A stretch of DNA of 64,000 bases from Actinomycetota bacterium (GTDB lineage Bacteria; Actinomycetota; Actinomycetes; Streptosporangiales; Streptosporangiaceae), in NCBI GenBank assembly GCA_027313705.1, contig DAHVDE010000026.1, positions 62,001 to 126,000 on the forward strand, written 5' to 3'. The position numbers and the translations under genes are program-made. Within the stretch, counting starts at the first letter, position 1. Every line of letters starts with the position of its first letter. The notes under the pieces are model-generated. The model was not told the DNA's origin. It searched no databases and saw nothing but the letters and a program-made list of their open reading frames with translations. Below, piece after piece: positions 932-56,293 of this stretch.

Positions 932-970
932 GAAAAAAAGTTGCCTGCACGTGGTACCGCTGCTTAAGGT
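932..970 (+). promoter_or_regulatory. Putative WhiB7-type promoter for the whiB7 leader
   Basis: An A-rich block (933-939) sits just upstream of a -35-like TTGCCT (941-946). A -10-like TAAGGT (965-970) follows after 18 bp. WhiB7 is known to activate sigma-A promoters that carry an AT-rich stretch next to the -35 element, which its C-terminal AT-hook contacts. In this GC-rich genome the A-tract stands out. Autoregulation of whiB7 is inferred, not shown. Confidence 0.55.
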
Positions 971-1030
971 CGGTGGTAGTTCATCTCAGCCAGGCGGTCT
1001 CGTGATGCTGCAAAGAGGGAGGTGCCCGTG

Positions 1031-1381
1031 ATGCTGAGCCTGATTACACCGGCCGACGCCGCGCCCGCGTGCGCGCCTTCCCGCATGGGCACGTGGTTCT
1101 TCTGCGGCAGCACGGCCGTCCCTCGTGACCTAGCCGATTGGCCGGCCGTCCTGGGTGCGCCCGACTGCGCCCAGAGGAGTGCCATGCCATTTGCGCGACC
1201 GAAGGCGCGCGAAGCGGTTTATCAGCTCGGCGACGGCACCCAGGCGTCTGGCCAGGCGGGATTCGCCGGGCAGCAGCGCAGCAGCAAAGTCAGGAACGCC
1301 CACACGACCCGTATCGCCGCCCGTCGCATGACCAAGGGTGGCGGTCATCTGGGTCCGCAACCGCCAAGGGATCCGGTCTAG
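1031..1381 (+). CDS. Possible upstream reading frame in the whiB7 leader
   Basis: The frame opens at ATG 1031 (GTG at 1022 or 1028 is also possible) behind a strong ribosome-binding sequence, AAAGAGGGAGGT at 1011-1023. It runs 116 codons and stops at TAG 1379-1381, 21 bases before the leader terminator. The protein matches no family I know, and its composition is only partly gene-like. Its value may lie in being translated: ribosomes reading to the stop would cover the 5' arm of the alternative antiterminator pairing (1351-1358). whiB7 leaders in Mycobacterium and Streptomyces are known to use upstream reading frames for attenuation, although those are usually short. The function is inferred. 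Confidence 0.4.
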   Translation: MLSLITPADAAPACAPSRMGTWFFCGSTAVPRDLADWPAVLGAPDCAQRSAMPFARPKAREAVYQLGDGTQASGQAGFAGQQRSSKVRNAHTTRIAARRMTKGGGHLGPQPPRDPV

Positions 1382-1416
1382 CCAGACCGGCCAAGATCCC
1401 CTAAGGCCGCGGACCC
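1351..1416 (+). promoter_or_regulatory. Candidate antiterminator pairing in the whiB7 leader
   Basis: GGGTCCGC at 1351-1358 is perfectly complementary to GCGGACCC at 1409-1416, which is most of the 5' arm of the terminator. The two pairings exclude each other. Between the arms, CCGGTCT (1373-1379) and AGACCGG (1384-1390) can form an inner hairpin. The 5' arm lies inside the last codons of the upstream reading frame, so ribosome position could decide which fold wins. The structure was worked out by eye. Confidence 0.45.
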
Positions 1417-1437
1417 GCAGATCGGGTCCGCGGCCTT
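1403..1437 (+). terminator. Intrinsic terminator in the whiB7 leader (attenuator)
   Basis: A perfect 14-bp stem, 1403-1416 with 1424-1437, encloses a 7-base loop (1417-1423). It lies 71 bases before the whiB7 start and after the upstream reading frame. There is no long T tract, as is common in GC-rich actinomycetes. A strong hairpin between promoter and gene is the arrangement expected of transcription attenuation. Confidence 0.75.
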
Positions 1438-1508
1438 ACTCATGCAAGGCCAAGGTTGCCGGTCAAGACGACAGACGTTGCGACAGCAGATGAGAGGGGA
1501 TGAAGCCG

Positions 1509-1955
1509 ATGTACCGGCGAGGATCCGCCGCAGTCATAGAGGACTCAGCGGCGGCCGAGGCGGAATTCGTGCGGGTGACCGCGATCAGCGGAAGCGTACC
1601 GGTCGCCGTGGTGGTGAGGTCGGATGTGGATTCGGCCGAGGCAACGGAGCCGGCCGGCCTGGGTTTCGGGCCTGCTGGTGTCGGGGTGGCTGGGGTCGGA
1701 TCTGTCGTGGTCGGGCGGGCGAGCGCGCCGGCCTGCTCGCAGGATCCTGACTTGTTCTTCGCCGAGTCGCCCGTTGACGTCGAGCTTGCCAAGTCCATTT
1801 GCCTGGGCTGCTCGGTCAGGGTTGCGTGCCTGGCCGGAGCGGTCGAGCGCAGGGAGCCTTGGGGCGTATGGGGTGGTGAGCTGTTCATTCGCGGCGAGAT
1901 AGTGCCAAGGAAGAGGGCACGTGGCCGCCCGCGCAAGGACGAAGTTGCCGCCTGA
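1509..1955 (+). CDS. whiB7: WhiB7-type iron-sulfur transcription regulator
   Basis: Regulator of intrinsic resistance to ribosome-targeting antibiotics in related actinomycetes, acting with the primary sigma factor. Four cluster cysteines are visible (Cys76, Cys98, Cys101, Cys107), followed by the EPWGVWGGE turn and a C-terminal AT-hook, KRARGRPRK. The AT-hook distinguishes WhiB7 from other Wbl proteins. ATG 1509 is preferred because GAGAGGGG lies 9 bases upstream; ATG 1500 abuts that sequence. The roughly 70-residue N-terminal stretch before the first cysteine is long and Val/Ala/Gly-rich for the family. It is controlled by the leader upstream and flanked by terminators on both sides. Confidence 0.9.
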   Translation: MYRRGSAAVIEDSAAAEAEFVRVTAISGSVPVAVVVRSDVDSAEATEPAGLGFGPAGVGVAGVGSVVVGRASAPACSQDPDLFFAESPVDVELAKSICLGCSVRVACLAGAVERREPWGVWGGELFIRGEIVPRKRARGRPRKDEVAA

Positions 1956-26820: not shown

Positions 26821-27102
26821 GTGACTGACGCAATCGTCGCGATTGTGCACGACGCGTTTGACATCGGCGCGGATGAGACCGCAGAGCCGACATGGCAAGA
26901 CCGGGCGCTTTGCGCCCAAACCGATCCTGAGGCATTTTTTCCCGAGAAGGGCGGCTCGACCAGGGAAGCCAAGCGGGTGTGCCGGAGCTGCGAGGTAAGA
27001 GCCGAGTGCCTGGAATACGCGCTCGCGCACGACGAGCGGTTCGGCATCTGGGGCGGCCTGTCCGAGCGGGAGCGCCGCAGGCTCAAGCGCCAGGCGGGGT
27101 AG
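26821..27102 (+). CDS. whiB2: WhiB2/WhiB-type iron-sulfur regulator
   Basis: A 93-residue Wbl protein tied to septation and sporulation in relatives. Cluster cysteines are Cys31, Cys54, Cys57 and Cys63, followed by the FGIWGGLSERERRRLKR turn. The GTG start is fixed by GGAGG 6 bases upstream. The order whiB2 divergent from fbiA matches Mycobacterium. A small hairpin (27110-27124) follows. Confidence 0.92.
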   Translation: MTDAIVAIVHDAFDIGADETAEPTWQDRALCAQTDPEAFFPEKGGSTREAKRVCRSCEVRAECLEYALAHDERFGIWGGLSERERRRLKRQAG

Positions 27103-55174: not shown

Positions 55175-55546
55175 GCCTGGTTCTTGGCCAAGTCGGTGCC
55201 CCCGGTCCTGACATCGGGCTCGGACAGGACTACCGTCAAGGTGTGGCACCCGTCCGGGTCCGTGGTTGCGCCTGGCGCCGCATCCCCGCTGCGGGGGCGT
55301 GGCGCGGGCAAGCCGATGCCAGCCGCAGGCGAAACGGTCCACGTAAGGCGACTCACTGTCGACTGATCACGGTGCGGCTTAGAAGTAAGTCCTGCCCTAG
55401 CCGCGGGATCGGATATCTCGCGGTGCGGGAGAAGAGCGTTAGTGGCATAGACAAGCCGCGAAGCTTTCAGCAGGCGGATGTGGGGTCGAAGACCAGGTCG
55501 GCCGGACGGGTGCCGCTTCCACACCCGACGGAAGGGGGCTCAGGTC
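55175..55546 (+). other. Gene-poor gap between lpqB and hpf
   Basis: No frame here resembles a known protein, and the few open frames lack ribosome-binding sites. A CGGGTG/CACCCG hairpin (55507-55527) lies just before the hpf ribosome-binding sequence and could affect its translation. The remains of a lost comF-like gene could lie here, but I cannot see them. Confidence 0.35.
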
Positions 55547-56293
55547 ATGGAAATCATCTTCAAGGGTCGTCATACCGAGGTGGCGAGCCGGTTCCGCGAC
55601 CAGGCAGCGGCCAAGCTGGAGAAGCTGGAGAAGCTGGACCAGAAGGCCATCAGAGTAGATGTGGAAGTGTCGGTCGAGCGCAACCCGCGGCAGTCGAGCC
55701 AGAAAGAGCGGGTTGAGCTGACGATCGTTTCGCGGGGACCCGTGATCAGGGCGGAGGCGGCGGCCGAGGATCGTTTCGCTGCCCTTGACCTGGCCATGGC
55801 GAAGCTGGACTCGCGCCTGCGGCGCGCGCTTGACCGGCGTAAGCGGCACCAGGCCGCTCATGGGCCAGGGCGTGCCGCCGACCGGATCTCCGATCGGGTG
55901 GAGGCCGGGCAACTTGTGCTCCCCGAGGACATGGAGTTGCCCCCCCAGCGAGCGTCAGCCGGCCAGGCCGGGCCTGGTTCCGCCGAGAGCATGGTCGCCA
56001 TCCCTACGGAGGGTGACGGGCCGCTGGTGGTGAGGCAGAAATTCCACCACGCCATGCCGATCGCGATTGATCAGGCGTTGCTCGAGATGGAACTGGTCGG
56101 TCACGATTTCTACTTGTTCCAGGACATTGACTCTGGCATGCCGAGTGTCGTGTATCGAAGGCGCGGATACCAGTACGGCGTCATTAGGCTTGTCGAGGAA
56201 CCGGCATGGTCCGGTCAGAGCACGACGCCGGCCGGACCTCCGGCCGGCGCGCCGGCCAGCCAGGGACACGCTACGGCGGCGCATTCTGGCTGA
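55547..56293 (+). CDS. hpf: Long-form hibernation promoting factor (HPF)
   Basis: 248 residues. The N-terminal S30AE domain (1-105: IIFKGRHTEVASRF, RNPRQSSQKERVELTI) binds the small ribosomal subunit. The C-terminal domain (about 160-225: VVRQKFHHAMPIAIDQALLEM, DIDSGMPSVVYRRRGYQYG) dimerises 70S ribosomes. The ATG has GGGGG/AGG upstream. The gene order hpf, NarL regulator, secA matches Streptomyces. Confidence 0.92.
   Translation: MEIIFKGRHTEVASRFRDQAAAKLEKLEKLDQKAIRVDVEVSVERNPRQSSQKERVELTIVSRGPVIRAEAAAEDRFAALDLAMAKLDSRLRRALDRRKRHQAAHGPGRAADRISDRVEAGQLVLPEDMELPPQRASAGQAGPGSAESMVAIPTEGDGPLVVRQKFHHAMPIAIDQALLEMELVGHDFYLFQDIDSGMPSVVYRRRGYQYGVIRLVEEPAWSGQSTTPAGPPAGAPASQGHATAAHSG

Follow-up and report, generated by a model that had tools for sequence, protein, structure and literature searches.

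Ribosome-mediated attenuators are taught as sensors for one amino acid or one drug, and the whiB7 leader described here, in which a frame of 116 codons precedes a perfect hairpin and the gene itself, raises the question of what the ribosome on such a frame would sense. Attenuation of whiB7/wblC, a regulator of antibiotic resistance, by an upstream open reading frame (uORF), a terminator and an antiterminator, as well as the induction of this attenuator by antibiotics and by amino-acid starvation, is a published mechanism according to the available parts of several sources (PMC10727445, PMC11550727, PMC12421871, PMC13393426, PMC12121999), and the available part of one of them, citing Lee 2022, names amino-acid starvation as an inducer of whiB7 (PMC12121999). 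The leader studied here lies in the window (the whole stretch of 64,000 nucleotides that was analysed) of a draft actinobacterial genome of 5.3 Mb, and it is a further member of this known class. The original prediction had read it as a translation-sensing attenuator, a reading that our analysis supports and that agrees with the published mechanism. Its parts, in window coordinates, are as follows.

932 to 970, + strand: WhiB7-type promoter, GAAAAAAAG-TTGCCT-N18-TAAGGT
1014 to 1022, + strand: Shine-Dalgarno (SD) sequence of the uORF, AGAGGGAGG, recognized from the sequence
1031 to 1381, + strand: uORF of 116 codons, ATG 1031 to TAG 1379-1381
1351 to 1358, + strand: 5' arm of the antiterminator, GGGTCCGC, inside uORF codons 107-110 and pairing with 1409-1416
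1368 to 1400, + strand: middle hairpin across the uORF stop codon (1373-1379 with 1384-1390, outer part 1368-1372 with 1396-1400), enclosed by the antiterminator
1402 to 1438, + strand: terminator-like stem-loop of 16 perfect bp (1402-1417 with 1423-1438) with the 5-nt loop CAGAT
1409 to 1416, + strand: segment common to the terminator 5' arm and the antiterminator, from the fold and the pairing in the family
1509 to 1955, + strand: whiB7, ATG 1509 in frame with ATG 1500, Pfam Whib 6.9e-13

The gene located 5' of the leader encodes an acyl-CoA thioesterase, and whiB7 on its 3' side is followed by a convergent gene for an ABC1-family kinase. The identity of WhiB7 was based on the Pfam Whib domain together with the GVWGG and RGRPRK motifs, and the gene was the single best match across the genome; ATG 1509 is the start that aligns with those of same-genus relatives. 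A second WhiB-like gene with 43% identity over the domain is located at about 26911-27060 (+) of the window. A search of Rfam at the gathering threshold gave no match within the whiB7 leader. Elsewhere in the window, a raiA RNA (RF03072, 146.9 bits) was found at 55249-55510 (+), directly upstream of a gene (frame 55478-56293) that has the look of one encoding a ribosome hibernation factor.

The predicted A-tract promoter is present, with the -35 element TTGCCT at 941-946, a spacer of 18 nt and the -10 element TAAGGT at 965-970, and transcription would start near 977. It has been reported that the WblC site, GAAAWY, is located 3 nt 5' of the -35 element (PMC7157823); the window has GAAAAA-AAG-TTGCCT, which matches five of the six letters at the same distance. 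The promoter layout was detected upstream of the uORF in 76 of 122 leaders of the same GTDB family, where 0.1 would be expected after shuffling. The strong ribosome-binding site and the 116-codon frame proposed earlier were likewise borne out. A GGAGG-like SD sequence precedes the aligned uORF ATG in the same-genus leaders, and both the SD sequence and the open frame are kept in relatives, from which translation of the uORF is predicted. The fold of the whole leader beats its own shuffles (z -3.65).

The suggestion that the long frame might be lineage-specific did not survive the comparison, as uORFs of about 50 to 150 codons were found in many actinobacterial families. The uORFs have 74-144 codons (median 102) in the 122 family leaders, for which the search accepted 60-150, 95-116 codons (median 107) in 19 Streptomyces leaders, and 58-147 codons (median 84) in 45 leaders of other families, so that a long frame is a general feature. 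The uORF starts were chosen automatically by SD strength, the family names of the relatives' genomes were inferred, a few of the included loci are less certain, and about 60 further loci outside the family, which had no clear uORF-terminator pair at the settings used, were left out. Because GC-rich DNA yields long open frames, openness in a single genome was not used as coding evidence, and the frames of 85 family leaders were compared instead: in 84 of them, no stop codon interrupts the final 80 codons of the uORF frame, versus 17 and 16 leaders for the other two frames. The rare-codon load of the window uORF is slightly raised (3.6% versus a mean of 1.2%, with 2.7% of fragments as high).

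The exact 8-bp alternative pairing between 1351-1358 and 1409-1416, with its 5' arm inside the last uORF codons, was confirmed. A complement of 8 nt is by itself weak evidence, being matched by 177 of 5000 shuffles (3.5%) of the 80 nt before the terminator; support for the pairing comes from its conservation at the same place in relatives. Among the 85 family leaders, in which the arm is located about 50 nt before the stem, positions 1352-1357 pair in 80 to 85, and the end positions 1351 and 1358 pair in 66 of 84 and 81 of 85, respectively. The antiterminator is therefore a conserved pairing built from uORF-end and terminator sequences. Of the 85 leaders, 81 use GGT for the glycine within the arm, a codon that accounts for 139 of 779 (18%) glycine codons elsewhere in the uORFs. 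The arms hardly vary, and covariation of the competing stems, which the original prediction had expected among relatives, is therefore thin: one leader (L103) has all three arms changed in concert (GCGAACCC, GGGTTCGC, GGGTTCGC) with pairing kept, and another (L089) has a joint change at 1356-1411 and at the terminator partner of this pair, next to a mismatched antiterminator pair. When the whole alignment was folded by RNAalifold, the terminator was recovered and the antiterminator only in part, because the length of the middle hairpin varies.

This middle hairpin was absent from the original prediction. A stem of at least 4 bp was found in all 122 family leaders, and it spans the stop codon in 117 of them. 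Its arms occur as 34 different pairs, such as CCGGTCT/AGACCGG, CCGGCCT/AGGCCGG, and TCAGGTC/GACCTGA, and the pairing therefore survives sequence change; taken one sequence at a time, the hairpin clearly beats shuffling in 77 of 122. Arginine codons among the last 8 codons of the uORFs are AGG or AGA in 73 of 96 cases (for example at 1367-1369 of the window) versus 38 of 540 elsewhere in the uORFs, a bias that might be due to base pairing with the C-rich stretch preceding the stem.

Folding of the growing transcript, with and without masked RNA, indicated how these elements could compete. With no ribosome, the antiterminator was formed at 3' ends of about 1412-1430, and once the second terminator arm was out, the terminator was preferred (-52.7 versus -42.6 kcal/mol for the antiterminator). 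Since the terminator is more stable once complete, antitermination has to be kinetic. When the RNA was masked up to 1375, the terminator alone was formed. It had been proposed that normal translation would cover the antiterminator arm, and this was supported only for a ribosome on the approximately 10 codons before the stop codon; with a ribosome at the stop codon, for which we assumed a footprint of 1364-1394, the arm is free and its pairing is allowed by the folding, and the 5' strand of the middle hairpin is covered instead. Beyond folding, the choice of the terminator would then depend on a steric block or on the loss of the middle hairpin.

The window uORF contains all 20 amino acids, all of them within the first 103 codons, where a stalled ribosome leaves the arm free. 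Among the 122 family uORFs, 90 contain 20 amino acids, 31 contain 19, and one contains 18. For the 52 of these with less than 50% identity, 14 amino acids were missing in total versus 66 +/- 6 by residue permutation, and the counts of Cys, Trp, Tyr, His, Lys, Phe, and Ile had variances well below their means. This test was conceived after the window uORF had been seen to contain all 20 amino acids, and the other families (37 missing versus 83 +/- 6 expected) and Streptomyces (5 versus 23 +/- 3, among closely related uORFs) served as a second look, on sets of loci chosen beforehand by visual judgement of whether the stem was plausible. In 62 uORFs from all families with less than 40% identity, a filter that reduces shared ancestry and leaves some of it, 34 amino acids were missing versus 95.5 +/- 6.9, and none of 1000 permutations reached this number. 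The same was true after removal of the last 13 codons (57 versus 127.1 +/- 7.3, 0 of 1000 permutations); after removal of the first 10 and the last 25 codons, the excess was down to z -4.5 (194 versus 229.5 +/- 8.0). Completeness is not absolute, in that all 20 amino acids are found upstream of the last 13 codons in 77 of 122 uORFs, with Cys, Trp, and Glu most often absent there.

The best surviving alternative, which we consider unlikely though worth keeping in mind, is an ordinary whiB7 attenuator that senses the general speed of translation or one abundant amino acid, and whose completeness is a by-product of length, composition, and ancestry. This alternative agrees with the attenuator being known from the literature, with the Trp, His, Tyr, and Lys residues that lie in conserved motifs at the two ends of the frame, with the incomplete amino-acid sets of the mycobacterial-type uORFs, and with the weakly greater conservation of single-copy over multi-copy residues (odds ratio 1.4-1.6, z 2.0-2.6, with both directions counted). 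However, the permutations and four further comparisons weigh against a by-product. Random frames with the codon-position composition of each uORF lacked a mean of 2.10 amino acids versus 0.55 observed, a Markov null pointed in the same direction, and length-matched gene fragments from the same loci lacked 220 versus 34 for the uORFs. Frames of 80 codons or fewer were also nearly complete, with 18 amino acids missing versus 46 +/- 4 expected.

The fourth comparison concerns relocation. For residues C, W, Y, H, F, K, N, and I that are present as a single copy in one member of independent pairs of relatives, 52 of the 58 losses at the aligned place were accompanied by a copy at another position, whereas a second copy was found in 46 of 142 cases in which the place was kept. 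Under strict conditions (local identity no lower than 40%, and the 6 residues on either side of the aligned place free of a copy), the numbers were 17 of 22 versus 31 of 125 (p 4e-6); p values from such 2x2 tables are somewhat too small because each pair is read in both directions. In the shuffling test, which used one direction, shuffled partner substitutions gave a mean of 12 losses without replacement versus the 3 seen, and never as few in 300 trials. For instance, Phe 29 in one uORF corresponds to Phe 63 in its relative (L126/L148), Tyr 59 to Tyr 65 (L169/L217), and Tyr 64 to Tyr 43 (L162/L159). This suggests that the uORF is maintained in a form that includes each of the 20 amino acids. 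C-terminal residues such as Trp and His showed no tendency to stand in for copies in the rest of the frame, and most uORFs have both. A related candidate, coverage of tRNA isoacceptors rather than of amino acids, was rejected, as synonymous diversity was at expectation (34.95 distinct codons per uORF versus 34.89 by synonymous permutation), including the split Arg, Leu, and Ser boxes.

The stem itself raises a second alternative. It is far beyond chance (fold z -7.1), and it is perfect, as had been predicted; its size and position differ from the prediction, being 16 bp at 1402-1438 rather than 14 bp at 1403-1437. Of the two elements of a Rho-independent terminator, the stem is present, and the T-rich tail is absent in the window genus and present in most of the family. 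The letters 3' of the window stem are CTCATGC, with no run of T, and a terminator scan demanding T found none at this stem. The window genus has 2-4 T per 10 nt after the stem, whereas the rest of the family leaders average 6.2. The T-rich tail is lacking in the window (1439-1448) and in the same-genus leaders L089, L092, L093, and L096, which keep stems of 14-17 bp, and TCATGCGAGG-like letters are found 3' of the stem in several such leaders. Intrinsic termination is uncertain in the window genus because of the absent T-tract. A perfect stem of this kind could instead affect the stability or processing of the mRNA, or take part in Rho-dependent ending of transcription. We regard this as improbable, given that at least 5 T within 10 nt follow the homologous stem in 103 of 117 family leaders and that the competing antiterminator is conserved.

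The peptide encoded by the uORF drifts almost neutrally. In 16 pairs of relatives, pN/pS was 0.79 for the uORF (core 0.77) versus 0.13 for the WhiB7 domain; most of these pairs had been selected for at least 60% peptide identity, a choice that biases the ratio towards lower values. The final 22 codons have few changes of either kind (synonymous 0.095 versus 0.219 in the core, replacement 0.073 versus 0.168), which is what conservation of RNA pairing would produce. Therefore, an arrest-peptide uORF, in which a particular nascent peptide stalls the ribosome under drug as in ermCL or tnaC, was rejected as very improbable, despite a GP(H/Y/Q)PWRxPV-like C-terminal motif that recurs in the family, since no nascent peptide is conserved (the core ratio being far above that of WhiB7), the scarcity of both types of change over the final 22 codons speaks for RNA pairing and not for a peptide, and the codons of the recurring residues lie in the antiterminator arm and the middle hairpin.

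The most probable reading is a whiB7 uORF attenuator with a frame kept to hold all 20 amino acids. Termination, antitermination, stalling, and the physiological signal in the window leader are what we infer for such a device, in the following manner. WhiB7 would drive its own promoter, RNA polymerase would make the leader, and a ribosome would translate the 116-codon frame behind the polymerase. A ribosome that keeps pace would be on the last codons and the stop codon while the polymerase is synthesising the 3' half of the leader, and the occupied end of the frame would block the antiterminator arm or the middle hairpin, so that the 16-bp stem would stop transcription. If there is no ribosome, or if it is slow or has stalled within the first ~103 codons, time would remain for the middle hairpin and for the pairing of 1351-1358 with 1409-1416 to form before the second terminator arm exists, resulting in read-through into whiB7. 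The frame would need to be long and open to provide at least one codon per amino acid, with no need for a particular peptide, and any shortage of charged tRNA or any drug acting on the ribosome might trip the switch. We also lean, with somewhat less confidence, towards the more general proposal that, outside Mycobacterium, the whiB7 uORF serves most actinobacteria as a universal amino-acid sensor, in which at least one codon for each amino acid is selected upstream of the antiterminator with no fixed place or context, so that a single cis-acting leader would report any amino-acid shortage or ribosome block to the resistance regulon. The evidence consists of comparisons among sequences, namely the anatomy, the conservation of pairing, the near-neutral peptide, the completeness of the amino acids, and its apparent upkeep by relocation. 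If this is true, the leader would be a general-purpose attenuator that gives an alarm under antibiotics and whenever any amino acid runs short. Such a device would account for the response of whiB7 to many unlike stresses and for a uORF that is long and yet poorly conserved, and it would predict the inducing stresses for each lineage, with a narrowed response in mycobacteria.

Leaders of amino-acid biosynthesis genes are short and rich in codons for the controlled amino acid. In these leaders (trp, his, and ilv; for Corynebacterium ilvBNC, PMC10272879), the position of the ribosome likewise picks the terminator or the antiterminator; in contrast, the whiB7 frame here has ~100 codons and at least one of nearly every amino acid. 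That the window leader is itself a biosynthesis leader was rejected, as it has no run of codons and its composition extends over all 20 amino acids, with Ala the most frequent (20 of 116). The toiL uORF of the E. coli topAI-yjhQ operon (PMC12121999) is also one uORF that reports several classes of ribosome drugs, for another gene in another host. The mycobacterial whiB7 uORF belongs to the same gene and the same control as the window leader, and the available parts of PMC10727445 and PMC13236596, citing Poulton 2024, connect it with alanine starvation. The four mycobacterial-type uORFs in our set (L273-L276, putatively Mycobacteriaceae) have 45-68 codons with 26-35% Ala and 3-5 amino acids missing, and no strong terminator stem was found for them at the settings used; these alanine-rich frames fit the published alanine response of mycobacteria. 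The closest systems are the whiB7/wblC attenuators of Streptomyces and Mycobacterium (PMC11550727, PMC10727445, and PMC13393426, summarising Burian & Thompson 2018 and Lee, Lee & Roe 2022), which, in the available parts of these accounts, have in common with the window leader the uORF, the terminator, the antiterminator over the uORF end, the WhiB7-driven promoter, and the gene. The window genus differs from them in the absent T-tract, and the available parts of their accounts make no mention of amino-acid completeness; in the literature searched, which lacked key whiB7 papers, no match was found for whiB7 together with "all 20 amino acids", and an earlier description is possible. Against this background of a known attenuator mechanism, what appears to be new here is a leader frame that is free in its sequence and has its list of amino acids kept complete.
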